This document shows, in pieces, positions 1,481 to 32,884 of a stretch of DNA of 33,049 nt (position 1 is the stretch's first letter; the number at the start of each line of letters is the position of its first letter). Source of the stretch: Ruminococcus sp. (GTDB lineage: Bacteria; Bacillota; Clostridia; Oscillospirales; Ruminococcaceae); NCBI RefSeq assembly GCF_017549005.1, contig NZ_JAFYYT010000042.1:1-33049 (forward strand), read 5' to 3'. The position numbers and the translations under genes are program-made. The notes under the pieces are model-generated. The model had not been told where the DNA came from, made no database searches, and saw only the letters and a program-made list of their open reading frames with translations.

Positions 1481-3649
1481 ATGATAAAAGGTTTGAAGCG
1501 TGTTTTTACAGTATTTGCTGCTTCCGTGATGACAGCCGTATCGTTAGCAGCATCTGCAACAGCGGCTGGAAATGAAGAAAACTGCGAAGAAAAGGCTCTT
1601 ACCAGTGAAGCATGGCACGAGGGCGACAGCAACGGCTCCATATCGCTGAACGACGGCGATAACAACGGATATAGCTGCGAATGGGACGAAAATGGCAGTT
1701 TTATCTTCCGCAAAGGCATTGAAACGGAAAAAGATTACGCAGCAAGCTGGTTCAGCGAGATGAAGGTCAATTATTCGGGCTCACTGACTTCAGACGGCAT
1801 AGCGTATACAGGCGTTGAGTTCATTCCGGACTTCGGTGATAGGCTGTATATCATAGACGTCTATACAGACAACAGCTTTTTCAAGGAAATGGAATATATA
1901 GGAGGCTATAGCAATCCAAGCAATGCGTCCGAAGTTGAATATTATAATATTTACGCATCTGACAGCACCGATGAGCTGACAGGCTGGAGCGGCAGGAGCT
2001 ACTGGTGTATCAGCGATTCGAGTCTTGGCAAACGAGGAAAAGAATACAGCACAGAGGTTGATCTTCAGACTCAGATTTTCAGATGTGAAGATTTTGGAGC
2101 CGAATTCGGCAATGCTGACAGAATAAACGTAATAACCGGAGGAAAGGCTTCAAAGGGCAGCGCTGAAATAAAAAGTGCGGGATTTACCGCTGAAGTAATG
2201 TCAAAAAATGAAATATCCGAAAGATTCAGCACTGATAAAAGCGATTATAAAAAGGACGGCGCATACAACTGCACTGTGTCAAACTTCAATACTGATAACG
2301 GCCGTTTTAATATGAACATGAACGGCGGTGGAAGATTCGATTGCAAATGGGAGGATTCAAAAGGTACCATCTATTTCAGCAAGGGTCTGAACTGCAGAGC
2401 AGAACTTAATAAGCAGCGCACGTTGACTGTTGATGCAAAATGGCACAAGGATAATTCCACAGGCAATTCCTCCTGTTTCATAGGAGAAATTGTAGATACT
2501 TCGATCAATAGCGCACTTGGGCCGTGTCTTGTCTATATTATCGAGGACTACGAAGACCTCAACTTTCTGAAAGATGCTGTTCTGAAGACAAATATCGACG
2601 GCTATGAAATATACACCAGGAAAGGAATAGACCAGTACAAGGGATATAGAGCCGATCAGATATGGGTAGTCAATACTCGCAGGAATTACAGCGGAGAATG
2701 TCATACAGACGTTGCGAAATGGCTCCGTAAGCTTGAAAAAGCACTTGGCATCGACCTGATATTCATATATGGAGTTGAATTTATGGTATATGCCTACGGT
2801 GAAAGCGGCGGAGTCAGCGTGGAAAGGAACAACATAACTATCCCTAAATATACAGAAGACAAATACCTCCGCGGAAATGATGAAACCGACAGGTCCGGCT
2901 TCCATTACTCAATTGCGAGCAGCTCAGCCGACTTAAACTATATGATAATAAACGTCTCTGACAATGCAATATGTTCTTGGGAAAAACAAAGTGAAAATGA
3001 AGAATCCGTATTCAGGAAAGGCATAAAGCTCCCTGAGCCTGTTAATACTGACGACTATGACAGCATATATTTTTCACTTGGAACGTATATAGTATCAGAC
3101 GATAGTTATTTTGCAGGCATATACGGTCATACTAAAGATTCGGGATCTGAATTCTACATAGTTAACAAATCCGCCAGCGAGGATTTTCTTAAAAACGCAG
3201 TTCCTGCCGGCAACGCCGATATATGCGGCTGCACCTATTCTCTGTATACCAGCGAAAGGCTGAATGCAGACGGTACGTCCATAAAACAGTTCTGGAGCGT
3301 ACTGAATAACAAATTAGTTCCCGCTGATGAGAAAAAAACAGAGACAGATTTGATACAGCACATTGAAAAATGGAAAGAAACTGGACTTGCAGGCGAGCCG
3401 AAGCTTGATGAAATATATGCTTTCGTCCATGCATACGGCACGGGCAGAGGATATGCACATATTAACGATATCGCTCTTGAACCTTACAAAAATTACGGCA
3501 GCAGAGATGTATACACCATCGGGGATATTGATAAGCTGCAGGGATATCTCCTCGGTGTCAGAGCTCATGTAAACAAGAGCTACGACGTCAACAATGACGG
3601 AATTACCAACATTTACGACCTTGTTGAACTCAGGAAAATGTTTTTCTGA
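1481..3649 (+). CDS. Secreted dockerin protein with three degenerate GH11-like domains
   Basis: A 722-residue exported protein. Residues 1-29 are a Sec signal peptide (Lys/Arg, hydrophobic core, ATA-A). Three copies of a beta-rich domain follow, roughly 45-240, 262-460 and 470-665. Each has the GH11 landmarks CEW/CKW/CSW, a central FYIV/LYII strand, YWC/IWVV/FWSV and a late glycine-rich strand. Compared with the intact xylanase at 23581, copy 1 has RLYIID and copy 2 has CLVYIIED where the nucleophile Glu stands, and copies 1-2 also lack the acid/base Glu. Copy 3 keeps the first Glu (SEFYIV) but has His (VHAYG) at the second. The C-terminus (about 670-722) is a half-degenerate dockerin: the second calcium loop DVNNDGITNIYD is canonical, the first has lost its Asp/Asn ligands. 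Catalysis is unlikely; carbohydrate binding on a cellulosome is inferred. Single-gene unit with its own promoter and terminator. Confidence 0.8.
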   Translation: MIKGLKRVFTVFAASVMTAVSLAASATAAGNEENCEEKALTSEAWHEGDSNGSISLNDGDNNGYSCEWDENGSFIFRKGIETEKDYAASWFSEMKVNYSGSLTSDGIAYTGVEFIPDFGDRLYIIDVYTDNSFFKEMEYIGGYSNPSNASEVEYYNIYASDSTDELTGWSGRSYWCISDSSLGKRGKEYSTEVDLQTQIFRCEDFGAEFGNADRINVITGGKASKGSAEIKSAGFTAEVMSKNEISERFSTDKSDYKKDGAYNCTVSNFNTDNGRFNMNMNGGGRFDCKWEDSKGTIYFSKGLNCRAELNKQRTLTVDAKWHKDNSTGNSSCFIGEIVDTSINSALGPCLVYIIEDYEDLNFLKDAVLKTNIDGYEIYTRKGIDQYKGYRADQIWVVNTRRNYSGECHTDVAKWLRKLEKALGIDLIFIYGVEFMVYAYGESGGVSVERNNITIPKYTEDKYLRGNDETDRSGFHYSIASSSADLNYMIINVSDNAICSWEKQSENEESVFRKGIKLPEPVNTDDYDSIYFSLGTYIVSDDSYFAGIYGHTKDSGSEFYIVNKSASEDFLKNAVPAGNADICGCTYSLYTSERLNADGTSIKQFWSVLNNKLVPADEKKTETDLIQHIEKWKETGLAGEPKLDEIYAFVHAYGTGRGYAHINDIALEPYKNYGSRDVYTIGDIDKLQGYLLGVRAHVNKSYDVNNDGITNIYDLVELRKMFF

Positions 3650-3677
3650 CAAATGGTTTGTTCTCAGCTTATTCAAT

Positions 3678-3710
3678 AACGGGACAGTTTTTCAGTTGTC
3701 CCGTTTATTG
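3678..3710 (+). terminator. Terminator of the 1481 gene
   Basis: AACGGGACA and TGTCCCGTT (9 bp) flank a ten-base loop and are followed by TATTG. It starts 28 bp after the stop codon. Confidence 0.75.
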
Positions 3711-3797
3711 ATTGCAGGCAGATAAAACCGCCCGAACCTAATGGAAACTTGGATATCAGTTATGACATCATCTTAAGAAACTGTTTTGGAGGGAAAA

Positions 3798-4370
3798 ATG
3801 AAAAACGTATATGAAAACTGTCCTGTTTTTGAAAGCAACCGATTTTTACTAAGATTTGTAATACAAGAAGACACAGATGACCTTCTTGAAGTTTACAGCG
3901 ATAAAAACGCTCTGCCTTTTTTCAACAGTGACAACTGCGATGGGGATAACTTCTACTATCCCGATACAGACAGAATGAAAAATGCCATAGATTTCTGGCT
4001 GCGTTCCTATGAAACAAAATGGTTTGTACGCTGGACTATCATAGATAAGACTTGTTCAAAGGCAATTGGTACTATAGAGATGTTCCACAGGTTTGCAGAT
4101 GATGATTTCAACCATGCAGGCGTTCTCCGTCTCGATGTGAGGAGCAACTATGAAAAATCGGATATATTGCGTGATCTCTTTGAACTTTTTATCCCCCCAG
4201 CTTATGAACTGTTCGACTGCAATGAGATAATAACCAAAGTACCTGTCTATGCAGTTGAACGTATCAATGCCGCTCAGAGCTTCGGCTTCACTAAATCGGA
4301 AAAGCTTTTGATTGGCACCAACGATCACTATGCCTATAACAATTACTGGACAATAAATAAGGATAGATAA
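3798..4370 (+). CDS. GNAT acetyltransferase, RimJ/RimL-like (190 aa)
   Basis: A cytosolic acetyl-CoA-dependent N-acetyltransferase, substrate unknown. The N-terminal SNRFLLRFVIQEDTDDLLEVYSD segment is typical of RimJ/RimL-type GNATs, and the C-terminal INAAQSFGFTKSEKL resembles the usual RALEKLGF helix. The central acetyl-CoA loop is poorly conserved (RLDVRSNYEKSDILRDLF in place of R/Q-x-x-G-x-G/A), so activity is uncertain. The ATG at 3798 is chosen because GGAGGG at 3788-3793 is correctly spaced; a TTG further upstream is not needed. It is the first of three adjacent GNAT genes; the next begins 2 bp after its stop. Confidence 0.8.
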   Translation: MKNVYENCPVFESNRFLLRFVIQEDTDDLLEVYSDKNALPFFNSDNCDGDNFYYPDTDRMKNAIDFWLRSYETKWFVRWTIIDKTCSKAIGTIEMFHRFADDDFNHAGVLRLDVRSNYEKSDILRDLFELFIPPAYELFDCNEIITKVPVYAVERINAAQSFGFTKSEKLLIGTNDHYAYNNYWTINKDR

Positions 4371-4372
4371 TT

Positions 4373-5008
4373 ATGAGTATTACAATAAAAGCACTTACTC
4401 CCGAATTGATAAACGATTATTTTGATTTCTTTGACAACCGCGCATTTTCCGATGATTCGCCCTTTTATCCATGCTACTGCAATGCTTTTAATATGAGTCT
4501 GGAGCAGATAAAAACACAGCTTTTTGCTCGCTCGGAGCTCTACGGAAATGGTGTTGAGGGCTGGAAAAGAGTTCTGCGTGAATCCGCATGGGATATGGTG
4601 AAAAACGGAATAATCCGAGGATATTTAGCCTATAATGATGAACTTGCAGTTGGCTGGTGCAACGCCAATGACAGAATGAATTATTACCGCGTGGGTGAAT
4701 TTGATATGGACAATATTCCCGAAGATGAACCGCCTTTGGGCTGCTCTGAAAAGGGCTCTGTCAAATCTGTGGTATGCTTTGAGATATCCCCCGATCATCG
4801 CGGCAGAGGCATTGCAGGAATGCTCCTGGCACAGGTATGCAAAGACGCGGCTGATGAGGGATACTCATTTGTGGAAGCTTATCCGAGCGATAATCTCGAA
4901 AACGGCAGTCTTGCATTCACAGGACCGCTTCGCCTTTATGAGAAATACGGCTTCAAGGAATATGCACGGTCTAGTTCTGCAATTATTATGAGAAAAGCTT
5001 TGAAATAA
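4373..5008 (+). CDS. GNAT acetyltransferase (211 aa)
   Basis: A GNAT-fold N-acetyltransferase with a clear acetyl-CoA site: CFEISPDHRGRGIAGMLL supplies the beta-4 strand and R-G-x-G-I/A pyrophosphate loop near residues 140-158, and LRLYEKYGFKEYAR is the conserved C-terminal helix-strand. A longer N-terminal part (YPCYCNAFNM, residues about 30-45, then an ESAWDMV helix) resembles GNATs annotated in clostridial small-molecule or antibiotic detoxification; the substrate cannot be read. The start follows the previous stop by 2 bp with only a weak GGATAG site, implying translational coupling. Confidence 0.85.
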   Translation: MSITIKALTPELINDYFDFFDNRAFSDDSPFYPCYCNAFNMSLEQIKTQLFARSELYGNGVEGWKRVLRESAWDMVKNGIIRGYLAYNDELAVGWCNANDRMNYYRVGEFDMDNIPEDEPPLGCSEKGSVKSVVCFEISPDHRGRGIAGMLLAQVCKDAADEGYSFVEAYPSDNLENGSLAFTGPLRLYEKYGFKEYARSSSAIIMRKALK

Positions 5009-5026
5009 CACATTGGAGGGATAAAT

Positions 5027-5479
5027 ATGCCTGTTTCCTACAGAAAACTGACTGAAAAAGAACTTGATACCTTTATTGAAATGCGTATAAACCAACTCCG
5101 TGAGGAAGGTGCAAAGGAGGATATCGACCTGAGACCTGCACTGAAGGACTACTACACTCGTCACATGGCAGATGGTACCTTTGTTTCGTGGCTTGCTGTA
5201 GACGGAGAAAAAATCATCGGCACAAGCGGTATGTCAATAGTTGAAAAGCCGCCGTATTTCGGCTGCCCAAGCGGTAAGATAGGACTTCTTTCCAGTATGT
5301 TCACTGATAAAAGCTACCGCAGACAGGGCATAGCAAGGGAACTCCTCTCACGAGTCGTAAATGAAGCTAAGGAACGCGGCTGCGGAACCGTTCAGATAAC
5401 AGCTTCGGATATGGGAGTTCTGCTGTACACAAATTTCGGATTCACAAAGAACAATAACTTCATGCAGTATAAATTATAG
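5027..5479 (+). CDS. GNAT acetyltransferase (150 aa)
   Basis: A compact GNAT domain, usual length for the family. FTDKSYRRQGIARELLSRVV is the acetyl-CoA binding strand and loop (R-R-Q-G-I-A), and VLLYTNFGFTKNNNFM is the C-terminal substrate-side strand. GGAGGG is well spaced before the ATG. It is last in a three-GNAT operon that ends at the hairpin 18 bp downstream. The three copies share little sequence, so they are not a recent tandem duplication; different substrates are likely. Confidence 0.85.
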   Translation: MPVSYRKLTEKELDTFIEMRINQLREEGAKEDIDLRPALKDYYTRHMADGTFVSWLAVDGEKIIGTSGMSIVEKPPYFGCPSGKIGLLSSMFTDKSYRRQGIARELLSRVVNEAKERGCGTVQITASDMGVLLYTNFGFTKNNNFMQYKL

Positions 5480-5496
5480 TCAGAAAACAACGCAAA

Positions 5497-5530
5497 AAAA
5501 CAGCTTCTTCACTGTAGAAGAAGCTGTTTT
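5497..5530. terminator. Bidirectional terminator between the GNAT operon and the small peptide gene
   Basis: AAAACAGCTTCTTC and GAAGAAGCTGTTTT form a perfect 14-bp stem around ACTGTA. T-runs lie on both sides, so it can end the GNAT operon (plus strand) and the 28-aa peptide transcript (minus strand). Confidence 0.85.
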
Positions 5531-5602
5531 GTCATTTCATTCTAATGTATTTTTTTAGGAGGTTATACACTAAATGCTTTCAGCTAAAATTTGGTTTTCG
5601 TT

Positions 5603-5689
5603 TTAACATCGTCCAGTGCTGCACATTCGGTCTGTCCCCCTGACGATGGAGCGGAGCATACCAAGCATACAGGATATTCTGTTTTTCAT
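5603..5689 (-). CDS. Unannotated 28-aa Cys-containing peptide gene
   Basis: A small gene that is complete in every element. A promoter (5721-5749) and AAAGGAG (5698-5704) sit correctly spaced before an ATG, followed by 28 codons, a TAA and a bidirectional terminator. The peptide starts MKNRISCMLGMLRSIVRG and ends GTDRMCSTGRC: three Cys, five Arg plus one Lys, a short hydrophobic centre, no signal peptide and no Gly-Gly C-terminus. I do not recognise the family. Its neighbour upstream on the same strand is a rhodanese, and next to that a ThiF/MoeB-type E1 enzyme. A sulfur-related leader or sensor peptide, a RiPP precursor and a small regulatory peptide are all open possibilities. No gene lies downstream before the terminator, which argues against a simple leader. 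Confidence 0.6.
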   Translation of the reverse strand: MKNRISCMLGMLRSIVRGTDRMCSTGRC

Positions 5690-5720
5690 TTTCACCGCTC
5701 CTTTCGTTTGGTGTGACTTT

Positions 5721-5749
5721 ATTATATCACGAAGAAAGAAGCTTGTCCA
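5721..5749 (-). promoter_or_regulatory. Sigma-A promoter of the small peptide gene
   Basis: On the minus strand TGGACA (5744-5749) and TATAAT (5721-5726) lie 17 bp apart. Transcription should start near 5714, 25 nt before the peptide's ATG. Confidence 0.75.
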
Positions 5750-5798
5750 ATGCTAAAAATCCATTGCAGATTATAGAAAAAAGCTATATCCGACTCTA

Positions 5799-5827
5799 TT
5801 GAAAAGCTGATTTGTATATGCTATACT
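5799..5827 (+). promoter_or_regulatory. Plus-strand promoter firing antisense through the rhodanese gene
   Basis: TTGAAA (5799-5804) and TATACT (5822-5827) are 17 bp apart. The next plus-strand gene is the ThiF-type enzyme at 6179, so the transcript would have a leader of about 345 nt wholly antisense to the rhodanese gene. Confidence 0.45.
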
Positions 5828-5850
5828 TATTAAACAAGTAGGAATTGTGC

Positions 5851-6153
5851 TTACAGCCCGGTACTTGCAAGACTTACGATATATGCAGCGTGACCACCCT
5901 CGATATTGTAAACGTCATATCCGCGGTCTTCCAGTATCTCGGCAACTTCTCCGCTGAGGTCGCCTGTTCTGCACAGAACGTAAACGGGCTTGTCTTTCGG
6001 TAGTTTTGAAAGTCCCGTAGATATCTCGTCAAAGGGCACATTTACCGAGCCCTTTATACCGTTATTTTTAAATTCTTCTCGGCTTCTTATGTCAAGAAGA
6101 AGCACTTTTTCCGTATCAAGAGCGGAGAGTTCAGATGCATTTATACTTTTCAT
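5851..6153 (-). CDS. Rhodanese-domain sulfurtransferase (100 aa)
   Basis: A single-domain cytosolic rhodanese of usual length. VLLLDIRSREEFKNNGIKGS is the entry strand and CH2A-like motif, and the active-site loop is CRTGDLS with the persulfide Cys near residue 61. GGHAAY closes the domain. Such proteins carry sulfane sulfur, often to ThiF/MoeB-type sulfur relay enzymes, one of which is the divergent neighbour. AAAGGA at 6161-6166 fixes the ATG at 6151-6153. Only 25 bp separate its start from the ThiF start, and both ribosome binding sites fill that gap, so its promoter should lie inside the neighbour; I could not identify it. Confidence 0.9.
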   Translation of the reverse strand: MKSINASELSALDTEKVLLLDIRSREEFKNNGIKGSVNVPFDEISTGLSKLPKDKPVYVLCRTGDLSGEVAEILEDRGYDVYNIEGGHAAYIVSLASTGL

Positions 6154-11555: not shown

Positions 11556-13832
11556 TTACTCTGTCTTTTCGGCAGAAACGGCTTTTCTGAGCTCCATGAG
11601 GTCGTAAATGTCCCATGTTCCGTCGCTGTTGATGTCAAAATCCCTGTCGCCGAAGTCACATTCTTCACCGAGCAGGAAGCTTCTGAACAGCTCCACGTCC
11701 TCCTCAGTGAATGTTTCCGGTTCAGCTTCTGATACTTCTATATTGCTGAAACGGAGGGATACTGTCCCCTTTCCGCGTCCTGTCATGTCGATACCAACGG
11801 CAGCCTGGCTTACACAGCCCAGTTTATAGCCTGCCTTCTTAAAAGCAGCTGCATGGGCTGCAAAGTCGATATAACCGCTCACACCGGAATGATTCTTGTC
11901 GTTCTCCCTGCATACGCTGTAATATTCGTCCACAACATTATCGCCATTGATAGTATGCGGAAGGATATGCTTCATCTGCACATACAGGTCGTACCATTTG
12001 TCGTTGATCCTGGTCTCGCCTATTTTCTTTGCGTCGCTTGGTACATAGGCTATGCTTGTACTGTCGAACACCTGCAAATGGATATCCCTGTAATAGCCTG
12101 CCTGTTTCATCCAGGCATGACCTGTGATGTAATAATTGCCCTCGGTGCTGACATCGGCAGCATAGCCAATGCAGACATTATCCTTCTTATCGAGGTATAT
12201 TTTTTTATCCTTGTCTATCATTTTTATCTTGCTGATGTAATCGTAAGCAAGCTTTTCACCGTCGTAATCGAATACGATAGTACCGTCCTTTTTCAGTACG
12301 CTTTGTGCGCCGCCGTACTGAGCGCTGTAGTCATATCCGTCCCTTTTATAGCTGACATTGCCGTCTCCGCCGAGGAGAACGTTCTCATTGTCATCAGGAG
12401 ACTCTATGTCAATATCGACGTCCTCAAGAATTATCTCGCCCGCACCCTTGCCGAATACCTCCGCAAAGGAAACGGTCTCATAAAGCTTTCCGAGTCTTGC
12501 TCCCGCTTTTTCCCAGGCTTTAAAATGCTTGAGAAGATCGACTTCGCCTGCAGCTCCGTAAACCGCGTCACTGAACTGTACCTGTGAAACGCTCCAGTAC
12601 TGATATACGGGAGGCGAGTCGAAAGACATGGAAACAGCGTAGCCCTTATACAGGTCATATTTTACTCCGTCTATCTCAACTGTATCAATATATTCCTTTT
12701 CTGAGACGAAATCGTCGGAATTCCTGAACTGAACTACATAAAACTCCGCAGTCTGATCGTAAGTCCAGCCGTAAACTCCTGCGGCATAGCCGTCCTTTGC
12801 CTTAATATCCGTTCTGTAGCGGATATTTATCTTGTCATAGTCGGTACATTTCAGAGCATTCGGGGCATTCAGGATATTTTCGTTCACACAGCCCTTACGG
12901 AACAGACAATTTGAATATTCGCTGTTATTATTGTACACGCAGGCAGCTTTTCCGTCACTGTATACGGTCATTTCGCCGTTTGAATAATCGTCGATCTGCC
13001 AGAAACTGTACCTGAGCCCGTCATAGTAAACATACTTATTTTCTTTCTCGCAATTCGGAACCGTCATTCTCGGCGGAGCGTCTATGGAAACTATCCTGTT
13101 GCGAGATACCTTTACAGAGCCCTTTTCGCCCAGCGCCCTGACGCAGAGCCTTGTACCCATTACCTTTTTGATATCAAGCTCTTCGCAAATGCCCTTTATG
13201 TCGATCTTTCCGCTCGTTTCCTCCGAAAGGTCAACGCTTTCCCTGCGTATGATGTAAACAATATCAGCAGACCCATTTTCTGTAGGTATACGATAGACAT
13301 CGTATTCTGCTCCGTTTACGGCTATGGTACCCGTTCTGAACTCCTCGCCGGGGAGCTTCATACCGGAATATGACTCCTCAACAAATATCTCAGCTAATCC
13401 CACCTGTTTGAAAACTCCCACAAACCTTGCGCGGAAAACATATCCGCCCTCAGTCTCCGCAGAAGCTGTATAGTCGATGTAATAACGCTTGAAGTCCTCC
13501 AGATTGGCTTCGTTGTGAGAGCCGACCTCAAAATCCGCAATATCTGTACCCTCCCACGAACAGCTGAATGTCATGTTTTTTCTGTTAATATCAAAAGACA
13601 GCTTTCCGTCGTCGCCAGCAGCTTTCCACAGCTCAAAATCAGCGTCCGAGCGCGGTTCTTCGTAATGCTCCGCAAAGGAATCCTCACCCGTTGCGATCCC
13701 CACATTCTGCTCCCCTGCTGCTTCAGGAACAAAAATATTTCCGACTGCGTCGGCAGGCAGCAAAGCCAATGAAGCCGTTGTGACAATACAGGCTGTCACC
13801 AGTGATAAAAAGTGTCTGATCTTGTTTTTCAT
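11556..13832 (-). CDS. Secreted dockerin protein with three GH11-like domains
   Basis: A 758-residue exported protein; signal peptide about 1-29. GH11-like copies lie near 62-250, 268-480 and 490-700. Copy 1 keeps the nucleophile Glu (GLAEIFVEE, E148) but has Arg (LCVRALG) at the acid/base position. Copy 2 is the best preserved: YSFWQIDD, AGVYGWTYDQTAEFYVV (E363), QYWSV and VSFAEVFGKG (E458), so both catalytic Glu may survive. Copy 3 has RDIHLQVF and VGIDMTG and lacks both. The tail is a half-degenerate dockerin: DFDINSDGTWDIYDLMELRK is an intact calcium loop plus helix, the preceding repeat has lost its ligands. The ATG at 13832 is preferred over one at 13844 because GAGGTG needs that spacing. 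The site overlaps the stop of the upstream gene, so the two are coupled. Confidence 0.8.
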   Translation of the reverse strand: MKNKIRHFLSLVTACIVTTASLALLPADAVGNIFVPEAAGEQNVGIATGEDSFAEHYEEPRSDADFELWKAAGDDGKLSFDINRKNMTFSCSWEGTDIADFEVGSHNEANLEDFKRYYIDYTASAETEGGYVFRARFVGVFKQVGLAEIFVEESYSGMKLPGEEFRTGTIAVNGAEYDVYRIPTENGSADIVYIIRRESVDLSEETSGKIDIKGICEELDIKKVMGTRLCVRALGEKGSVKVSRNRIVSIDAPPRMTVPNCEKENKYVYYDGLRYSFWQIDDYSNGEMTVYSDGKAACVYNNNSEYSNCLFRKGCVNENILNAPNALKCTDYDKINIRYRTDIKAKDGYAAGVYGWTYDQTAEFYVVQFRNSDDFVSEKEYIDTVEIDGVKYDLYKGYAVSMSFDSPPVYQYWSVSQVQFSDAVYGAAGEVDLLKHFKAWEKAGARLGKLYETVSFAEVFGKGAGEIILEDVDIDIESPDDNENVLLGGDGNVSYKRDGYDYSAQYGGAQSVLKKDGTIVFDYDGEKLAYDYISKIKMIDKDKKIYLDKKDNVCIGYAADVSTEGNYYITGHAWMKQAGYYRDIHLQVFDSTSIAYVPSDAKKIGETRINDKWYDLYVQMKHILPHTINGDNVVDEYYSVCRENDKNHSGVSGYIDFAAHAAAFKKAGYKLGCVSQAAVGIDMTGRGKGTVSLRFSNIEVSEAEPETFTEEDVELFRSFLLGEECDFGDRDFDINSDGTWDIYDLMELRKAVSAEKTE

Positions 13833-13845: not shown

Positions 13846-15993
13846 TCATTTTTCAGATAAAATAACAGGCCTCATCGTTTTTTCTTCCTCTTCGGCAGTT
13901 TCTATTTTAAAGTCATCGCTTATCTCAGCGTCCTTGCCGAGCTCAAGAAGAATATGCCACTCAGCCATATCAGCGGTCATGACCTCGGGGAATGAGCGCG
14001 ATATTGTAACAGCCGACCCGGTAAATTCCACGACCTTGACCTCTATCGAACCGCTTGGCTCGCTGAGGATAACATCAAGGAGCTTGTGATCACTGAACCA
14101 TTCATCGGTATATTTTCCGATCGCCTCCTTATAGGAGTCCCTGGCATAAATAAAGCTGTTTTCCCTTGAAGTGAGCTGCTTTTCAAGCTGTTCCGCGCTT
14201 GTTATGAGCTTTGCCGCAGGGTATGCTATATTTTCGGAAACTCCGGAGCCCTTTATGTATTTTGCATTGATCTCGTACTTTTTCACATCAGAGGCAGCGG
14301 ACTGCTCCAGTATCTTTTTACGCATAAGGCAGAGGTCGAAAGTATCGAGCTTGTTGTCCGTGCAGAGGTCTGCCGCTTTCCAGTTCATAAGGTAAGCATT
14401 TTTTGAGCCGAGCAGCCACTTCTGAAATACAACGATATCCGCCATGTTGCAGACGCCGTCCTCGTTTATATCGCCGTTTGCGATCCTTGTCACCCTGAAA
14501 GTGATTTCTCCCGAATCATTTGAATAACGCCTGCATTCCCTCGGATTGACCAAAGACGGAGCATATCCGTCGGGAAGCTTATCCTGATTGAGGTAAATAT
14601 CCGGCATATAAGGGTGATCAAAACACAGATAATACGGATTATTGCCTTCACAGTGCGTAATAGTCTCCTGCAAACTATCAGAAAACAGATCTGAAAAATT
14701 CGTTCCGTCGGGAATATCAATAAGCTCTCCCGTGATATCGTCAATAATTGTCACACGTTTTGTATAAGTCTCAAGCTCCTCCGCATTTTCCCATAATACC
14801 TCTGTATCCCTGTAGTCCTCTCTCGGAAGCTCTATTTTCAGGATATCAAGGCCATATGGCTGCGAATACGCTCTGATGACAGACGTAAATAACACATTCA
14901 GCTTACCGTCCCTGTAATAGAGCTTGTTAAGATAATAATAGACAATATGCCCGTCATGCGTGTCACGGAATGTTTTCAGCAGCAACACATTGTCATTAAA
15001 GAAGTCGTCATCGTATGCTGCTGCAAAGTCATTTGCAGCCTTTTCATTCAGGCAGCATGACAGAAACACATTAAGCTCCTCTGCAGAGCTGATGACTGCC
15101 TCTTCTGACTCAAACGCCTTGTCATCGTTCAGTAGACCGTCCCTGACATCTCCCGATTCCATGCTGTAGCTGTCACATGAAAACTTCTCCTTAATGTTCA
15201 GATACTCTGTATGCCTTTTTATCTGTGAAGGGTCGATATCAGGCCGCTCTTCTCCCATATACAAGTAGTTTACGCTGATATCTCCGCCGCTGCGGTAGCC
15301 GCTAACGCCAAGCATTATTCTGTCAACGGCGCCGAGTTCAAAGCCTGCTTCTTCCCACGCCCTGAAATGTTCCTTCATGTTGACAGTATTGTTCAGATGC
15401 CTTCCTTTTCTGCACATTCCCTCTGCAGAAGTGCATATGCTTATGATATCATGATACGCTCTTTCGGGAGTTTCGCTGAAACAGCCATACTGATCGCGGA
15501 TTATATCATAAAGCTCATATGTACGGCCGTCAATCTCGGTTTTAGCTATATAGTTGTAATTTCCGGGCGGTCTCCAGCTGCCCCATGTTTCTATAATGCT
15601 GAACTGCGTTCTGCTGTCCTTAATGGTGCCGTATACGTATAAATAGCTGTTGTTATTAAAATACAGGTCGGCGTCATAGCTTACGTAATAATCGGAAAAA
15701 TCGGAAGCATTTACGGACTCCTCAAACTTTTTTCCCTTCATGCACAAAGTGTCCTCTATATTATCGCCCCATGAGAAGCTGAAACCGTTATTATCCGTAT
15801 TTTCATAGCTGATATCGCCCACTTCGTTTTGCAGCCATATCTCATAATCATAACCATTGACCGAATCCATTAATTCATAATCCATTGCAGCCGCTGTCAT
15901 AGGCACTTTATTATAAGACGTAAATGCGGAAGCTGCCAGAATACAAGCTCCTGATAGAACAAAAGAAAGTACTTTTCCAGTTATCCTTCTCAA
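13846..15993 (-). CDS. Secreted dockerin protein with a catalytically dead GH11 domain and duplicated PrcB-like domains
   Basis: A 715-residue exported protein. Residues 47-245 align well with GH11: GYDYEIWLQN, FSFSW, YVYGTIKDSRTQFSII, ETWGSWRPPG and GVSGYRSGGDISV. The nucleophile Glu is Gln130 (RTQFSII versus LMEYYIV) and the acid/base Glu is Ser231 (VSGYRSGG versus IEGYRSNG), so it should not hydrolyse xylan. An alpha/beta domain (about 285-410: SSAEELNVFLS, DDDFFNDNVLLL) recurs after the dockerin (about 597-695: TSAEQLEKQL, TDEWFSDHKLLDVI, MTADMAEWHILLEL) and resembles PrcB/DUF-type domains. A full dockerin sits internally at 507-564 (GDINEDGVCNMADIV; the second loop LCTDNKLDTFD). The start is TTG at 15993 with GGAG seven bases upstream. 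First gene of an operon with 11556-13832. Confidence 0.8.
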   Translation of the reverse strand: MRRITGKVLSFVLSGACILAASAFTSYNKVPMTAAAMDYELMDSVNGYDYEIWLQNEVGDISYENTDNNGFSFSWGDNIEDTLCMKGKKFEESVNASDFSDYYVSYDADLYFNNNSYLYVYGTIKDSRTQFSIIETWGSWRPPGNYNYIAKTEIDGRTYELYDIIRDQYGCFSETPERAYHDIISICTSAEGMCRKGRHLNNTVNMKEHFRAWEEAGFELGAVDRIMLGVSGYRSGGDISVNYLYMGEERPDIDPSQIKRHTEYLNIKEKFSCDSYSMESGDVRDGLLNDDKAFESEEAVISSAEELNVFLSCCLNEKAANDFAAAYDDDFFNDNVLLLKTFRDTHDGHIVYYYLNKLYYRDGKLNVLFTSVIRAYSQPYGLDILKIELPREDYRDTEVLWENAEELETYTKRVTIIDDITGELIDIPDGTNFSDLFSDSLQETITHCEGNNPYYLCFDHPYMPDIYLNQDKLPDGYAPSLVNPRECRRYSNDSGEITFRVTRIANGDINEDGVCNMADIVVFQKWLLGSKNAYLMNWKAADLCTDNKLDTFDLCLMRKKILEQSAASDVKKYEINAKYIKGSGVSENIAYPAAKLITSAEQLEKQLTSRENSFIYARDSYKEAIGKYTDEWFSDHKLLDVILSEPSGSIEVKVVEFTGSAVTISRSFPEVMTADMAEWHILLELGKDAEISDDFKIETAEEEEKTMRPVILSEK

Positions 15994-16167: not shown

Positions 16168-18078
16168 TTACCTTTGATTCTCGTCGAGCATAGTTGCTGC
16201 TCCTATGAATACAGGAACATTGTTCTTGTCAACGATCATGTAAATGAAAGGTCTGTCAAGCTCGATGTATTTCTTTTCCTTCTGAGGGCGTGCAGCATTG
16301 CCCATCATCATAACGTAAGTTACGGCAGCTGCCTTTGTCCCCTTTTCGGTGACTTCTATCCTTGTCTTATGGAAAACATCGTCGATATAGAGCGGTCCGT
16401 TTACAGACTCGCTCATCTTGCCGAAGTCCGCTTTTGATGTGAAAGCCTCGCTCATTCCCATACTGCTGAGAACTTCCTTGAGGGACTTCGAATAATTGTA
16501 CTTGAATTTCGGTATCATTACGTTGAGCTCGATAGTATCGGGATCAACGTACTCCTTGAGCCCCTCTGCAAGCTTTTCGCCGTCAAGCTCCTTGATATAC
16601 TGTACGATATCATTTTCCTTAGGGAGTATTCCCACGAAGCTGTAATTGTTGTATATGTAGGGCTTCTTGAAAGCGTCTGCGTCGCCGAGGTCGAAGTACA
16701 TTGTCTCTTCACTGTTCATTCTCTGTATATTATGCTCCTTACCATTGAGATCGGTGAACTTGCCGTCTCTGCTCTCTGTGTAAGGCTTCTCCCATTCAGC
16801 CTCGAAATAGAGAGCATTTATAAGCATCATCAGATCATCGGGATCAAGAGAGTTAGGACCAAGAAGAGTAGGTATCATGCCCTTTGTGTTCTTGTCCACC
16901 CAGCCGTTGACGTCGTTAACGGTGCTTTCGTCAAACGGAGTCTTGTATATAGCAGAGTTGTAGTACTTCTTGTTCGCTTCGAGGAAATCATTTTTTACCT
17001 CAAACCCATCCCTTATCCATATGGAGTTGGCAACATACAGCTTCTCCTTTTCCTTGTCGGGGAGATTTGCCACATAGTAAGCCATATACTCGTTAATATC
17101 GTCAATAGTCAGACCGTTTCCGAGTACCTTTTCCATTTCCTCCTTTGTACTTCCGTCAGCGCCGTTTGCAGTCATTGCAAGCGCAGACGAAATGGAAAAC
17201 GGAGAGATAAGGAGATTTTCCTCGCCGCTCTTTGTCGGGTCGAAGCATTTTTTCAGCAGTTCCACGCCGAACTTCATTTCAGCCTTTGCAAAATCCTCAT
17301 CTGTGACCTTTCCCTCTTCCGCAAGTACATCAACTTTATCGTCGAGCCTTACGCTTCCGATAACAGCATTGCCGTAGAAGTTATCGGCTGCACCAAGCAG
17401 AAAATCCGTAACTCTTGCAAGGTCGTCGGCGTCGATAGTATCATTCTTGTTTATATCTGCATTGAGGAACATTTCATTAGTGAGCTCCTGTTCCGAACCG
17501 CCTGCAAGGTATTTTCTGTAAGCGATAAGATCAAAGGAATCCACTGTTCCGTCATCGTTTATATCTCCATAGAAGTGAACGCTCGGAGATTTGACATAAA
17601 CTATTTCATCTATCAGATATTCACTTTCCCTGCTTGTGAAATTTTCATCGACTTCATTCTCTGCTTCGCGGAGCGACTGATACTCTCTCTGACATCTTAT
17701 TTTCAGAGTAACGATAGTACCCTCGCTTATTTCGCTCATCAATGATCTGTTTCTTACAATTTTCTTCTTTTCCTCGGCGTCGGCCTCACTGCCGGCTTTG
17801 ACAGGAACGATTAAATGCAGTAAACGTGACGGATACCATGTGGAATATACGCCGTCGACCTTTGGAACAGCGTGAATGCGGAATTTTCCGTCCTGAACGT
17901 AAGCATTGTATATACATATGTTCTTCAGCTCGTACTCATACGTTTGCTGTTGTGTTGTCTGAGCGCTGGCGGTAAAAATACCTGAGCTGTTCTGCGGCAG
18001 ATAGCTTACAGTGCCAAGAGCCAGTGCAAGACTCATGATACCGGCAGTTATCTTTGTAAATTTCTTAATGTTTCTCAT
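16168..18078 (-). CDS. Dockerin-bearing secreted serpin (636 aa)
   Basis: A suicide inhibitor of serine or cysteine proteases. Residues 1-40 hold a Sec signal. An unrecognised domain follows to about 170 (TYEYELKNICIYNAYV..., SEYLIDEIVYVKS). Next come a complete dockerin (YGDINDDGTVDSFDLIAY, then NADINKNDTIDADDLARV) and the serpin fold (about 245-636) with NLLISPFSISSALAMTANGA, MLINALYFEAEWEKPY and the C-terminal DRPFIYMIVD. The reactive loop hinge EKGTKAAAVT starts at 578 with the small residues needed for strand insertion, so it should be inhibitory. Counting from P17 puts P1 near Asn594, give or take two residues. Dockerin serpins (PinA of Clostridium thermocellum) protect cellulosomes from proteolysis. 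Start ATG with GGGAGGAG upstream. Confidence 0.95.
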   Translation of the reverse strand: MRNIKKFTKITAGIMSLALALGTVSYLPQNSSGIFTASAQTTQQQTYEYELKNICIYNAYVQDGKFRIHAVPKVDGVYSTWYPSRLLHLIVPVKAGSEADAEEKKKIVRNRSLMSEISEGTIVTLKIRCQREYQSLREAENEVDENFTSRESEYLIDEIVYVKSPSVHFYGDINDDGTVDSFDLIAYRKYLAGGSEQELTNEMFLNADINKNDTIDADDLARVTDFLLGAADNFYGNAVIGSVRLDDKVDVLAEEGKVTDEDFAKAEMKFGVELLKKCFDPTKSGEENLLISPFSISSALAMTANGADGSTKEEMEKVLGNGLTIDDINEYMAYYVANLPDKEKEKLYVANSIWIRDGFEVKNDFLEANKKYYNSAIYKTPFDESTVNDVNGWVDKNTKGMIPTLLGPNSLDPDDLMMLINALYFEAEWEKPYTESRDGKFTDLNGKEHNIQRMNSEETMYFDLGDADAFKKPYIYNNYSFVGILPKENDIVQYIKELDGEKLAEGLKEYVDPDTIELNVMIPKFKYNYSKSLKEVLSSMGMSEAFTSKADFGKMSESVNGPLYIDDVFHKTRIEVTEKGTKAAAVTYVMMMGNAARPQKEKKYIELDRPFIYMIVDKNNVPVFIGAATMLDENQR

Positions 18079-28203: not shown

Positions 28204-28272
28204 TAGTAAAGGGCTGAAAAAGGTGTCGGCTCGGAAACAACAGCTGCATGTAAAAAACGAGGAGGTATCATT

Positions 28273-30192
28273 ATGAATAACATAAAAAAGAAGCTTTTAT
28301 CGCTTATTTTAGCAGCAGGAATGACAGCTTCAATGCTGCCTGCGTCTGTTTTCGCCGAAAACGAAAAGATACAGAGTGAAAAAATATCAATGACCGAATT
28401 AAACAAGTTAAGGGCTCGGCCGTCGGAGTATGACGAGAAGTACGAGGCTGCCACCCTTGAGGAAGTAATGACGGAGCTCTGCGGAAATTATGTATTTCTC
28501 AACAGCCACGATGTAAGCTACCATTCAGGCAGTTTCAGCTGTATCGGAGACAACGGAAAGATACATAAAATCGACAGCTACTATACCGAGACTGTTGTGA
28601 AGGTCAAAGAGGATACGTCTCTCCCTGTGGAGGAGATAATGTCAGAGGCTGTGGATATGGGCATAAAAAAGCCCGAGATAAACAAGGACGGAGATCTTTA
28701 CCGTATAACGGTCACGGCTCCCTATCAAAATGACGAAGAAAACGCAATGAAGTTCCTGCTCAACAAGCTTGCGGACTGCGATAATGTGGTCTCGGTAAAG
28801 GAACATCTTGCAATATACGAGGATACCGCCAACCATGTAAGTCTGGAAGGCGTGTATGTCGGCAAGACAAAGCTCAGCGACGAGACAATGGGAGAACTCC
28901 TGCTGAAACTCGCTCCGCTTGGCGCAAAAGAAGACACAAGCAGTTATACACTTGACCGTCTGCGTAAAACAGGGTACAGATACAACTTTGTGTTCGACTA
29001 TGACCTTATAAACAAAATGAACGACAAATCTGCCATATACGACCTTTACAAATACCTTGATGAGAGCGGTCTCAGCTACTCAACATTGTCTTATCAGACC
29101 TGCCTCGCAATGGCAGAGCCTGAGGTATATTTCTGCAGCAAGGAATACCCTCTCGGCAAGAAATACGATGTCGTTAAAAAGCCTTCATACCCGACTGGCG
29201 AAGAAGAAGCTCAGGGAGAGGAACTGTCACAGCTCAATTTCAAGCTGAACAATCCCGATGAAGAACTCGAAGCCGCATACAAGTCTGCAACTTTGGACGA
29301 AGTATTCGACAAGCTCTGCGGAAACCATGTCGATCTTTCCAGCCATTACGGCAGCGAGCTTTTCTCCGCCGTCGGCCAAAAGCAGCTATTCAAAATAGAC
29401 GAAAGCGGCAGGATACATATCATCTACGTCAGGGGAGCCGAGACCGTCGTTAAGGTCAAAGAGGACACAGAGCTCCCGTTAAAGGATCTACTCGCTGACA
29501 TAAAGGTTGACGGTTACAACAGTCTGAGTATTTCAAGGCAGGATAATATCTACCGCATAAAGAACTCCCCCTCGAAAGAGATCATGGACAAAATAATCGA
29601 AAAGCTCAGGACTTACGGCAATGTAATCTCCATTGACGAGCATTTTGCAGTCTACGAGGATACAAAGAACTACTCGGGCTTCTCGTCCGAAAACTCTATT
29701 TACATCGAAGGAAAGGACATTCCGGAAGAGGAGCTCCTCGAAAAGCTTGCCGCATTTGACCCTTCGGAGCTCACAGACGATACATACATCGACTATCTCT
29801 TAAAGAACGATTCGGAACTGGTCTTCAGGATAGGCGAAAACCGTCAGAACGACCCGACGGAATACTATAAAGCGGTAAAATACCTTGCAGACAACAACAT
29901 AGGCTACAGGATACCGAGCACTATCACCGAACTGGCAGTCCTGAAAGCCGAGGTATTCTACTGTAACCGTCCCTGCCTGATAAACGGCATGGAGGGCGAC
30001 GCAAATGCCGACGGACAGCTCGATATGTCCGACGCGGTAATGATAATGCAGTCCCTTGCAAATCCCAACAAATACGGTGTAAAGGCCGCAAAAGGCATAA
30101 CCGCACAGGGCATAAAGAACGGTGACGCCGACAATAACGGACTTACCACAAACGACGCCCTTGAAGTGCAGAAAAAGCTTCTTGGTCTTTAA
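28273..30192 (+). CDS. Secreted dockerin protein with two copies of an unknown domain (639 aa)
   Basis: Signal peptide 1-28 (ASVFA-E). Two homologous blocks of about 270 and 240 residues follow, near 40-315 and 335-560. Shared segments are AATLEEVMTELCGNYV / SATLDEVFDKLCGNHV, ETVVKVKEDTSLP / ETVVKVKEDTELP, NVVSVKEHLAIYEDT / NVISIDEHFAVYEDT and PEVYFC / AEVFYC. No glycoside hydrolase, esterase or CBM signature is recognised. The paired strand-helix pattern recalls ferredoxin-like or peptidase-inhibitor I9 folds, which is only an impression. The C-terminus is an NPNKYG-type dockerin (GDANADGQLDMSDAVMIMQS, DADNNGLTTNDALEVQ). It faces the ECF sigma operon from a matching promoter, so it is the clearest candidate target of that factor. 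GGAGG precedes the ATG. Confidence 0.85.
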   Translation: MNNIKKKLLSLILAAGMTASMLPASVFAENEKIQSEKISMTELNKLRARPSEYDEKYEAATLEEVMTELCGNYVFLNSHDVSYHSGSFSCIGDNGKIHKIDSYYTETVVKVKEDTSLPVEEIMSEAVDMGIKKPEINKDGDLYRITVTAPYQNDEENAMKFLLNKLADCDNVVSVKEHLAIYEDTANHVSLEGVYVGKTKLSDETMGELLLKLAPLGAKEDTSSYTLDRLRKTGYRYNFVFDYDLINKMNDKSAIYDLYKYLDESGLSYSTLSYQTCLAMAEPEVYFCSKEYPLGKKYDVVKKPSYPTGEEEAQGEELSQLNFKLNNPDEELEAAYKSATLDEVFDKLCGNHVDLSSHYGSELFSAVGQKQLFKIDESGRIHIIYVRGAETVVKVKEDTELPLKDLLADIKVDGYNSLSISRQDNIYRIKNSPSKEIMDKIIEKLRTYGNVISIDEHFAVYEDTKNYSGFSSENSIYIEGKDIPEEELLEKLAAFDPSELTDDTYIDYLLKNDSELVFRIGENRQNDPTEYYKAVKYLADNNIGYRIPSTITELAVLKAEVFYCNRPCLINGMEGDANADGQLDMSDAVMIMQSLANPNKYGVKAAKGITAQGIKNGDADNNGLTTNDALEVQKKLLGL

Positions 30193-30231
30193 TTGAAATT
30201 CACCCCCACAAAAGCAATAAAAGTTCAGAAA

Positions 30232-30246
30232 TGTTGAATTTCAACA
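30232..30246. repeat. Perfect 15-bp palindrome upstream of the 30350 gene
   Basis: TGTTGAA-T-TTCAACA, located 17 bp before the proposed -35 box. It could be an operator; no regulator is assigned. Confidence 0.5.
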
Positions 30247-30263
30247 ATATCCGACTTGTATTG

Positions 30264-30293
30264 TTATGAGAAATGATATAAGATTAGTATAAT
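30264..30293 (+). promoter_or_regulatory. Probable sigma-A promoter of the 30350 gene
   Basis: TATAAT (30288-30293) is perfect; the best -35 is a weak TTATGA (30264-30269) 18 bp upstream, consistent with activator dependence. Confidence 0.5.
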
Positions 30294-30349
30294 GGATAGT
30301 TATATCCTGACATTATTTATTATTTCTCATTTTCTGTGGGGGTGTTTTT

Positions 30350-32884
30350 ATGACATTCAGAGGTTTTAAACGGGCTGTTTCCGCAGCAGCCGCAGCAGTA
30401 TGCTTCGTTTCAGCTGTTCCGGCGGTCCCGCTCATAGCAAGCGCCGAACACATAATCACAAAGGGCGGCTATGACTACGAATACTGGTCTGACAGCGACG
30501 ACTACCTCAAATTCGACGTTGACGAGGACGGCGTCATGCTGGGCTCATGGTATTCGCAGTCAAACTGCTTCTTCGCAAAGGGTTTGATAAAGAATAAGCC
30601 CGTTTCCAATAATTATATTGTAAACTACGATGTTTCCATCAATTTCGGACCTGTTCAGAATGCTTCCGCATACGGTGCGTGTACTTACTTATGCGCTTAC
30701 GGCACATTATCCGATCCGCCTGCGGAGATCTTCCTCATAGACTATGATTCTGACCCGGAATGGTATAACGGCGGGGGAGAAAATCCTCCGTGGTACAATG
30801 AAGCTCATAAAGATGACTATACTCCGCTGGGAAGCTTCGAGTCGGACGGCAATATCTACGATCTTTACACCAACAATGGCGTAAACCACACTATAGACGG
30901 CTCATACAACTATGCCAGATACTTCAGCGTCCGCCGAGGCTGCAAGATGAAAGACCGTTATGAAACCAATCAGTCATGGGGAGCTGTCACCGAATACAGC
31001 GACTATTCGGGTTCAATAGACGTAGGCGCACATCTTGACGCATTTGAAAAGGCAGGAAAAAGAGTGGGCGACCTCGAAAGGCTTTCATTCAACATCGAGT
31101 CATACTGCTCTGGCGGCGAAGTTAAGCTGAACAGCTGTGAAATAACAGAAAAGGCAGAGGAAGACACCGAACCGATAAAGACCCGAGGTACCTTTGAAAA
31201 GGACGGTTACAACTATTCCTACAGCTCGTCATGCAGACCAAGCAAGATCAACCTAAAAATACACGACGACGTAAAGTCAAAGGAATTTGATTACTCCTGT
31301 CCTGACGGCACAAACACCATAACGAAGGAACTCATAACAGAGCCTGTAAAGATAGGAAAAAACGACGTTATCATGTTCAGGAGCGACTATGAGTTCACTC
31401 TGAAGGGCGAAGACGACAATAAGAACCGTTTCAGCGGCATACTTGAAATGGAACTGAACGACGCACAGAAAGTGTTCTTTGCTGATACCGGACTGGCTCT
31501 CAGTGAAAAGAAGATTGAAGAGATGTATGCCGAAAAGGGCATAACTGCAAAGCCTGCAGGCAAGACAGACGGTAACACCATAAAGCTTCGTGAAACACTT
31601 TTTTCCGATACCAACAGAGAAATGAACGTCTATCCCTTTACTTACACAATAAAGAACGGCGATAAGGAAGAAAAGCACACCGATTACTGGCTGACCGATC
31701 TTGACAGCGACACTTATTCCTACCGCTCAGGCAATCATAAATACAGCGGCAATAAGATCAAGCTCCAAAGCTCGTACAGATGCTACAATATCCACACGAT
31801 GACAGACGTTTTTGAAGCTCTCGGAGAATTCGGACTTTCGGCTGAAACCATCGAGTCTGCTTCCTTTGTATTCTGCTCCGAAAATGTAGGCAGTTCGATA
31901 TCTGTAGCTGATATTTCCCTTGATGTTACTGATTTCCCCGACGGTCCCTATGATTACTCGGTAAGCTATTACGGCGAGGGCGATTTTTCATTGAAGTCAA
32001 AAGAAAACGGCGTTTTTGACTTCGACTGGTACAACAAGCTCGGCGGGACCTGCTTTGCAAAAGCCGGAAAACGTTTCGGCGGCAGCGGTCTTGACCTTGC
32101 AGATGTTGAGAGCATCACCGCAGACTACAGCGTAACTGTCGATTCCGTTGAGATATACAAGGTCGACAAGGACAAAACCTCGGTATACTTATACGGCACA
32201 CTCCCTGCGACAGAAGAGAAAACGGACGAGTTCTACATTGACATTGCCTACCTCGGAAACGATGAGACACTGAAAAAAAGGTCAGGCTCTTCCGCACCGC
32301 TTTCCGCTATTGACGATAACGGAAAGACCTACGATCTTCACAGCAACTCAATGCTCTCCGACAGCGGTTATGAGTTGTTCGTAAGCAATATCGACGACGA
32401 GCTCTCTGTAGACCGTCAGTACTGGAGCATGGAGCACGAGCCCCCCGTAAACGGAGAGGACGCGGCTTCATTCAGCGGAACGATAGACATAACGAAGCAT
32501 ATCGCAGAATACAGGGCTTTGGAAAACGGAAATAAATGCGGACTTCTCAGTGAGCTTGCCATAGTTGCGGACGCAGAGCAGTCGGTCGGCAATATTTCTG
32601 TTGACAAATTCGATATCACCATTACATACAAGGACGGAACAGTTGAGAAGTATACTCCCGCTGAAGTAACAAAAACTCAGAAAAAGACGGTCATCGGCGA
32701 CCTTAACGGCGATAACAGAACGGATTCACTTGACCTCGTGCTAATGCGTCGTGAAGTCCTCGGTGCAGAAGCAGACAAGACGGTCAATAAGCTGGCAGAC
32801 ATGAACGGCGACGGACAAGTAAAACTCAACGACCTTGTGCTTCTGACAAATTTCATACTCGGAAAAAAAGCAGATAAAACATAA
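30350..32884 (+). CDS. Secreted dockerin protein with three GH11-like domains (844 aa)
   Basis: Signal peptide about 1-32 (LIASA-E). Copy 1 (38-270) starts GGYDYEYWSDSDDYLKF and keeps both catalytic positions: E126 in PPAEIFLIDYD and E250 in SFNIESYCSGG. It lacks the usual WG-WRPPG run, replaced by an acidic, Trp-containing insert (DPEWYNGGGENPPWYNEA). Copy 2 (about 285-530) is more diverged; the nucleophile site reads AQKVFFAD and the acid/base Glu is gone. Copy 3 (about 540-760) keeps the first Glu (TDEFYIDIAY) and has Asp (IVADAEQ) at the second site. A complete dockerin ends the protein (GDLNGDNRTDSLDLVLMRRE, ADMNGDGQVKLNDLVLLTNF), of a class different from the NPNKYG type. GGGGGTG precedes the ATG. 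Copy 1 could be active; a binding role is equally possible. Confidence 0.8.
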   Translation: MTFRGFKRAVSAAAAAVCFVSAVPAVPLIASAEHIITKGGYDYEYWSDSDDYLKFDVDEDGVMLGSWYSQSNCFFAKGLIKNKPVSNNYIVNYDVSINFGPVQNASAYGACTYLCAYGTLSDPPAEIFLIDYDSDPEWYNGGGENPPWYNEAHKDDYTPLGSFESDGNIYDLYTNNGVNHTIDGSYNYARYFSVRRGCKMKDRYETNQSWGAVTEYSDYSGSIDVGAHLDAFEKAGKRVGDLERLSFNIESYCSGGEVKLNSCEITEKAEEDTEPIKTRGTFEKDGYNYSYSSSCRPSKINLKIHDDVKSKEFDYSCPDGTNTITKELITEPVKIGKNDVIMFRSDYEFTLKGEDDNKNRFSGILEMELNDAQKVFFADTGLALSEKKIEEMYAEKGITAKPAGKTDGNTIKLRETLFSDTNREMNVYPFTYTIKNGDKEEKHTDYWLTDLDSDTYSYRSGNHKYSGNKIKLQSSYRCYNIHTMTDVFEALGEFGLSAETIESASFVFCSENVGSSISVADISLDVTDFPDGPYDYSVSYYGEGDFSLKSKENGVFDFDWYNKLGGTCFAKAGKRFGGSGLDLADVESITADYSVTVDSVEIYKVDKDKTSVYLYGTLPATEEKTDEFYIDIAYLGNDETLKKRSGSSAPLSAIDDNGKTYDLHSNSMLSDSGYELFVSNIDDELSVDRQYWSMEHEPPVNGEDAASFSGTIDITKHIAEYRALENGNKCGLLSELAIVADAEQSVGNISVDKFDITITYKDGTVEKYTPAEVTKTQKKTVIGDLNGDNRTDSLDLVLMRREVLGAEADKTVNKLADMNGDGQVKLNDLVLLTNFILGKKADKT

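Follow-up and report, generated by a model that had tools for sequence, protein, structure and literature searches.

GH11-derived domains lacking catalytic glutamates on dockerin proteins of a Ruminococcus genome

Why would a fibre-degrading bacterium keep enzyme domains that have mostly lost the residues for cutting? The question is raised by a window of 33,049 nucleotides, one entire contig of Ruminococcus sp. (NCBI RefSeq assembly GCF_017549005.1, contig NZ_JAFYYT010000042.1), in which four proteins, P0001 to P0004, carry domains related to GH11 xylanases. The genome comprises 3.33 Mb in 56 contigs and contains many genes for plant fibre degradation. A sequence-only reading of the window had described ten GH11-derived pseudoenzyme domains, arranged in tandem on four dockerin proteins, and had offered xylan binding, spacing or the decoying of plant xylanase inhibitors as their new job. 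The explanation tentatively preferred here, held at less than even confidence and drawn from sequence comparison, is that they are mostly non-catalytic GH11-derived binding or structural modules on dockerin proteins, probably of a cellulosome. The copies have mostly lost the cutting residues and are nevertheless kept by selection, which suggests a new, non-cutting use of the enzyme fold.

A search with the Pfam GH11 profile (PF00457), proposed earlier as a check, placed all four proteins above the cut-off of 27 bits, with 72.3 bits for P0001, 109.2 for P0002, 87.9 for P0003 and 51 for P0004. Ten GH11-type segments were delimited with a profile that included relatives, three each in P0001, P0002 and P0004 and one in P0003. 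When only intact GH11 domains were used for the profile, eight of the ten were recovered at probabilities of 92.8 to 99.8%. Domain by domain in a whole-genome Pfam search, five of the ten exceeded 27 bits and P0001 copy 1 reached 26.2. Catalytic positions were read from the profile alignment and are numbered as in the Bacillus circulans xylanase BcX, the catalytic dyad of which is given as E78 and E172 in the text available of PMC12078400; residue pairs are written with the nucleophile before the acid/base. The intact GH11 domain of the neighbouring protein P0005 (25591..26205 (-)) served as the control.

P0001 (1481..3649 (+), 722 aa) has three GH11 domains, all of them degenerate, and ends in a half-degenerate dockerin. 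Its copy 1 (1601..2182 (+)) reads R/G and matched intact GH11 at 92.8%, copy 2 (2249..2839 (+)) reads L/Y and matched at 5.0%, and copy 3 (2888..3478 (+)) reads E/H and matched at 96.3%. Copy 2 matched P0002 copy 1 at 91.3%, and its assignment to the GH11 type is supported indirectly by this comparison. P0002 (11556..13844 (-), 762 aa) has three GH11 domains followed by a half-degenerate dockerin: copy 1 (13092..13652 (-)) with E/R and 98.6%, copy 2 (12408..13025 (-)) with E/E and 99.5%, and copy 3 (11736..12347 (-)) with H/D and 99.1%. P0003 (13846..15993 (-), 715 aa) contains one degenerate GH11 domain (15256..15864 (-)) with Q/S and 99.8%, then an unrecognised region, a dockerin and an unrecognised C-terminal domain. 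P0004 (30350..32884 (+), 844 aa) has three GH11-type domains and a dockerin; copy 1 (30458..31147 (+)) reads E/E, keeps the thumb motif TIDG and matched at 99.8%, and copy 3 (31940..32620 (+)) reads E/D and matched at 98.2%. GH11 homology was thereby shown for eight to nine of the ten copies. The tandem arrangement stood for P0001, P0002 and P0004 and failed for P0003, since this protein has one GH11 domain only.

The tenth domain, P0004 copy 2 (31196..31921 (+)), is assigned to GH11 only tentatively. It matched intact GH11 at 14.1%, and a profile comparison gave no match to any of the nine other window copies. Its acid/base position is C; the nucleophile, possibly E, is uncertain, as the position is poorly aligned and is occupied by V, K, K, K and D in five relatives. 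An AlphaFold2 model of this copy (pLDDT 51.5) was biased towards the family because the rows of its alignment were the window GH11 sequences. Among the 50 PDB matches listed for the model, most were GH11 and several GH12, with one unrelated receptor, at TM-scores of about 0.3 to 0.5. A full-length structure model of P0001 (pLDDT 39.5) was set aside.

Both glutamates were found only in P0002 copy 2 and P0004 copy 1, and eight of the ten copies lacked one or both. The earlier tally of two copies with both, four with one and four with none was reproduced by the profile alignment, and would become two, three and five if P0004 copy 2 has lost both. To call the domains dead is therefore right for most and wrong for the two copies that keep both residues. 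Most copies of P0001, P0002 and P0004 were also changed in most other cleft residues. P0002 copy 2 retains Y69, W71, E78, Y80, Q127, W129 and E172, while P0004 copy 1 retains Y69, E78, E172, Y174 and the thumb; W85, R89, P90 and P116 are gone in both, and R112 is gone or gapped. P0003 retains Y69, W85, W88, R89, P90, R112 and Y174. Within the families formed with homologues, 13 of 14 members have Glu as the nucleophile of P0002 copy 1 and 12 of 14 have Arg at its acid/base position, and P0002 copy 2 has an acid/base Glu in all 14 and a nucleophile Glu in 8. The pair is E/E in five of the six members of the P0004 copy 1 family, and the acid/base of P0004 copy 3 is D in three members and E in the other three.

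Dockerins of P0003 (14308..14475 (-), 28.6 bits) and P0004 (32696..32860 (+), 37 bits) exceeded the cut-off of the Pfam dockerin family (PF00404, 22.9 bits). The dockerin of P0001 reached 14.8 bits, and the Pfam scan of P0002 gave no dockerin match, its dockerin-like C-terminus (11574..11708 (-)) having an intact second repeat by eye. Inspected in the same way, the C-termini of both P0001 and P0002 show a degenerate repeat followed by one good calcium-binding repeat. The assignment of dockerins to all four proteins was thus borne out by Pfam for two of them, with the other two below the cut-off or recognisable by eye as half-degenerate. Ten cohesin matches were found in the genome, of which eight were above the cut-off and five lay within one frame of 1206 aa; together with the dockerins they indicate a cellulosome, into which the dockerins would carry the modules. 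Hydrophobic N-termini were seen by eye on P0001 to P0004. By eye, the dockerin subtype of P0001 and P0002, in which the first repeat is degenerate and the second intact, is shared with the L232 and L233 proteins of genomes G067 and G018, which may be GH114-type enzymes.

The loss of glutamates extends beyond the window. After segments with identical cores had been merged (33 to 30), 14 of the 30 distinct GH11 segments of this genome lacked a glutamate and 16 had both, P0005, P0002 copy 2 and P0004 copy 1 being among the latter. In genome G034 a glutamate was missing from 20 of 36 segments, one of the 20 being ended by a stop before the acid/base, and 16 had both. Both residues were found in 96 of the 186 GH11 domains of a wider set, which is biased because relatives of the window proteins had been fetched on purpose. 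In a phylum sample GH11 occurred in 13 of 397 other genomes, and none of the 15 domains there lacked a glutamate, a control that might miss a highly degenerate lone copy. One 1115-aa protein of G034 (L256, contig C1, about position 1026137) has Gln (CAA) as nucleophile and the usual residues at the 12 other sites read; it is either a natural binding-only form or a sequencing error.

Thirteen full-length homologues of P0002, with 33 to 67% identity, were found in 10 of 120 genomes of the genus, and at E <= 1e-25 the family was absent from the other genomes among 295 of the order. In a set of 24 genomes picked for many GH11, P0004 had five full-length relatives in five genomes, P0003 had two homologues in two genomes, covering it up to about residue 565, and P0001 had no full-length relative. 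The P0003 homologue in G067 (L194:11699-13174 (-)) has an in-frame stop near the N-terminus and an open remainder that is 69% identical; relatives in G062 and G034 are interrupted too. Contig C3 of G067 holds counterparts of P0002, P0003, a serpin gene, a GH127 gene, three other genes, P0005 and P0004. An unrooted tree was calculated with 8 of the 14 P0002 and five of the six P0004 family members. In it copies 1, 2 and 3 of P0002 formed their own cross-species clades (support 100/99, 100/94 and 100/98), as did copies 1, 2 and 3 of P0004 (100/100, 100/100 and 100/99). P0003 was placed closer to intact GH11 than to P0001, P0002 and P0004 in this tree (support 92/94), which suggests at least two origins.

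Between the window and G067, seven copies gave dN values of 0.13 to 0.35 and dN/dS of 0.07 to 0.15, and the intact GH11 domain of P0005 gave 0.047 and 0.034, dS being saturated in both cases. Four unsaturated P0002-like pairs (dS 0.12 to 0.16), in which all three copies lack a glutamate, had whole-protein dN/dS values of 0.155 to 0.194 with upper bounds of 0.24 to 0.28. Over all pairs, 30 dN/dS values for GH11 domains ranged from 0.05 to 0.45, and 22 of them lay between 0.1 and 0.25; several intervals were wide and one extended above 1. The copies are therefore constrained, less strongly than their active neighbour. The results support the view that the window copies are retained by selection and are not decaying, and the claim of pseudoenzymes under selection stood, eight of the ten qualifying by residue and the dN/dS values below 1 and positional orthology attesting to the selection.

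P0003 belongs to a second family. A search with P0003 yielded proteins mostly of 710 to 770 aa with an N-terminal GH11 domain and mostly a second, very degenerate C-terminal GH11-like match (13 to 86 bits). The family comprises 22 members with P0003 included, and a Pfam dockerin was found in all six that were scanned, P0003 among them. Only 2 of the 22 N-terminal domains are E/E; the other 20 have lost one or both glutamates and show 12 different residue pairs, E/Q being the commonest (five). On a tree in which several forks are weak, inspection by eye put the number of losses at about seven for the nucleophile and about seven for the acid/base. P90 is retained in 21 of 22, W85 in 19, W88 and Y174 in 18 each and W71 in 17, and a set of fold residues is retained in 20 to 22; Y69 and Y80 are each kept in 10 and the thumb proline in one.

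Active GH11 xylanases of this genus seem to have given rise to at least two such families. Members of the P0003 type lost the glutamates on several branches while W71, W85, W88, P90 and Y174 mostly stayed, and their domain may bind without cutting, with xylan or a related glycan as ligand, in the manner of BcX E78Q. The E78Q variant binds xylotriose with an active-site KD of 5.7 mM in the text available of PMC12078400. It resembles P0003 and L212 in the change of the nucleophile from Glu to Gln; it differs in being a man-made single change in an otherwise intact cleft, whereas P0003 has lost more. Glycan binding is the leading guess for the P0003 type because the tryptophans are kept and BcX E78Q still binds, with the cleft averages counting against it. 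Among the triples P0001, P0002 and P0004, one or both glutamates often persist in one copy (P0002 copy 2, P0004 copy 1); what the other copies would retain is mainly the fold, serving as a structural or recognition unit. Such roles fit because the fold is conserved without an excess in the cleft, with two copies of the triples perhaps still enzymatic. In sum, we infer glycan binding, a division of labour and cellulosomal assembly.

Several results weigh against this explanation. W71 and Y80 are lost in P0003 itself. In its family, 27 of 63 positions that are near-invariant in intact GH11 are kept in fewer than half of the members, both glutamates included, and the 12 other cleft positions are kept with a mean of 0.51, compared with 0.57 for 49 non-cleft positions. 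The glutamates were therefore not singled out and the cleft was not specially spared, so that the earlier suggestion of xylan binding may draw on some retained cleft residues and not on the cleft as a whole. The conservation tests used the positions that we take to form the cleft. In intact GH11 (n = 12) these were more conserved than the rest (0.90 versus 0.79; random P < 0.001), while the same comparison gave P values of 0.08, 0.15 and 0.44 for P0002 copies 1, 2 and 3 with all 14 members and of 0.42, 0.63 and 0.95 for P0004 copies 1, 2 and 3 with six members. A value of 0.04 for P0002 copy 2 was obtained on 7 of the 14 members, and the rows dropped there held five of the six that have lost the nucleophile. 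The cleft of the triples is no better conserved than the rest once all homologues are counted. Finally, the phylum control was run with Pfam and the census with a profile tuned to degenerate copies; compared like for like (Pfam, E <= 0.001), 8 of 26 GH11 matches here lacked a glutamate versus 0 of 15 elsewhere (Fisher P 0.018).

The conservation of fold positions without a clear cleft excess, seen in six groups with all homologues, agrees with a role of the dead copies as mere spacers, making the proteins longer and stiffer and thereby letting the dockerin keep another part at some distance. The fixed order of the copies also fits, and the earlier suggestion of spacers is to this extent compatible with the triples. 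This explanation nevertheless appears rather doubtful. P0001 and P0003 are without any E/E copy and so offer no plainly active part to be spaced, and spacing would hardly be expected to fix Arg at the acid/base in 12 of 14 members (P0002 copy 1) or Glu there in 14 of 14 (copy 2).

Somewhat less likely still, judged from the residues, is that the E/E copies and perhaps some E/D copies are glycosidases of changed specificity with the others as degenerate partners. P0002 copy 2 and P0004 copy 1 do keep cleft residues, the latter together with its thumb and with both glutamates in nearly all of its family. Against this stand the loss of W85, R89, P90 and P116 from both copies, with R112 lost or gapped, and the loss of the copy 2 nucleophile in 6 of the 13 P0002 homologues. 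This explanation also fails to account for P0001 and P0003.

It is decidedly less likely that the copies work like PsXLP1, which protects PsXEG1, and shield the active GH11 enzymes by soaking up plant xylanase inhibitors. For GH12 there is a precedent of a decoy formed by an inactive paralogue, as far as the text available of PMC8960721 goes, and the dN of the copies exceeds that of the intact neighbour (0.13 to 0.35 versus 0.047). In the text available of PMC9739030, the groove that separates thumb and palm receives a loop of XIP-type inhibitors, which with one exception act on xylanases of fungi and not of bacteria. There, too, TAXI types are competitive at the active site and TLXI-type inhibitors bind outside the active site, so that loss of the cleft would not exclude TLXI types. 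The decoy proposal is weakened because the thumb and cleft contacted by XIP and TAXI types are mostly gone, as in the P0003 family, where the thumb proline persists in a single member; P0004 copy 1 keeps its thumb. The pairwise, not site-wise, dN/dS values moreover indicate constraint and not positive selection.

Neutral decay after gene amplification, to which the in-frame stop in the G067 homologue of P0003, the interrupted G062 and G034 relatives, the lack of a full-length P0001 relative in the 24 genomes and the wide dN/dS intervals, one extending above 1, might point, is very improbable and was rejected together with chance because of the phylum control, positional orthology and dN/dS values mostly well below 1, with open frames of full length in 13 P0002 and 5 P0004 relatives besides.

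A broader form of the preferred explanation, that of non-catalytic binding or structural modules, would hold that in this genus a non-catalytic recognition fold has evolved from GH11 on more than one occasion. This fold would make up about half of the GH11 domains in GH11-rich genomes and be shown on the cellulosome via dockerins, with catalysis repeatedly given up and the old cleft adapted to different ligands of the cell wall or to proteins of plants. In this full form the proposal is doubtful.

Compared with known systems, the window domains are homologous to GH11 endo-xylanases (PF00457, e.g. BcX), of which 16 segments in this genome keep both glutamates; they differ in the absence of one or both glutamates from 8 of 10 domains and in the change of most cleft and thumb residues. 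XIP-type inhibitors are themselves inactive GH18 proteins and thus also represent a glycosidase fold reused without catalysis. They have another fold, come from another kingdom and are inhibitors, not dockerin proteins. PsXLP1, a GH12 protein of Phytophthora, is likewise an inactive glycoside hydrolase paralogue kept for a non-catalytic job; in the text available of PMC8960721 it is inactive through a C-terminal deletion, belongs to another family and acts in a plant-pathogen setting. Proteins described as 'GH11-GH11-Doc' (WP_019679180 and EWM54934 in R. flavefaciens 17 and 007c) appear in a table of multifunctional proteins in PMC4081043. By this described architecture they resemble the window proteins in combining GH11 domains with a dockerin, and they may be relatives of the P0002 or the P0003 family. 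The main text of that paper uses none of the terms 'inactive', 'catalytic residue' and 'pseudo', and 'inactive' is missing from all three R. flavefaciens papers in which it was searched. No description of tandem inactive GH11 proteins was found in the literature searched, which covered few subscription papers. The earlier statement that no such class has been described therefore agrees with this search, with the reservation that the GH11-GH11-Doc architecture is in print. Pseudoenzymes of glycosidase families are known as such; unusual here are the tandem, dockerin-borne form and the frequency of glutamate loss.

Other observations concern the surroundings of these proteins. Pfam gave no name to the regions beside the P0003 dockerin, and BLAST (E 0.30) lent no support to the idea that these flanking regions are copies of a single domain. 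The C-terminal domain of P0003 (13849-14298 (-), about 150 aa) is without a Pfam match and was also matched in other long proteins of the genus; the C-termini of L033:5939-8056 and L030:7078-9207 matched it with 33% identity (E 9e-18 and 1e-16). Two further proteins, L032:3589-6870 (-) and L234:1315-4626 (+), have three GH11-type segments, all degenerate, an SH3-type match below the cut-off and a dockerin that by eye is half-degenerate; their C-terminal region is 88% identical with a dN/dS of 0.07 and has no Pfam name. A gene for a serpin with an N-terminal dockerin (16168-18078 (-)) shares its strand with P0003 and P0002 and lies immediately upstream of them. The gaps are 174 bases between serpin and P0003 and one base between P0003 and P0002, so that an operon is possible, and all three counterparts stand together in G067. 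P0005 (23581-26325 (-)) combines its intact GH11 domain with a carbohydrate-binding module (CBM), an esterase-type domain and a sub-threshold dockerin in Pfam. P0008 (28273-30192 (+)) adjoins P0004 and by eye falls into two halves that resemble each other. Its dockerin match stays below the cut-off, and no Pfam family exceeded its cut-off in this protein.

In automatic annotation these proteins receive the name GH11 xylanase. Of the 23 GH11 matches that exceed the Pfam cut-off in this genome, 5 are without a catalytic glutamate, and others fall slightly short of the cut-off. The dockerin proteins of R. flavefaciens FD-1 contain many unknown modules, given as 155 putative domains in 118 proteins in the text available of PMC2930009, and degenerate GH11 may account for part of these as well. 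Should the copies bind glycans, they would represent binding modules with a new origin and would plainly exemplify an enzyme family in which catalysis has been abandoned many times.

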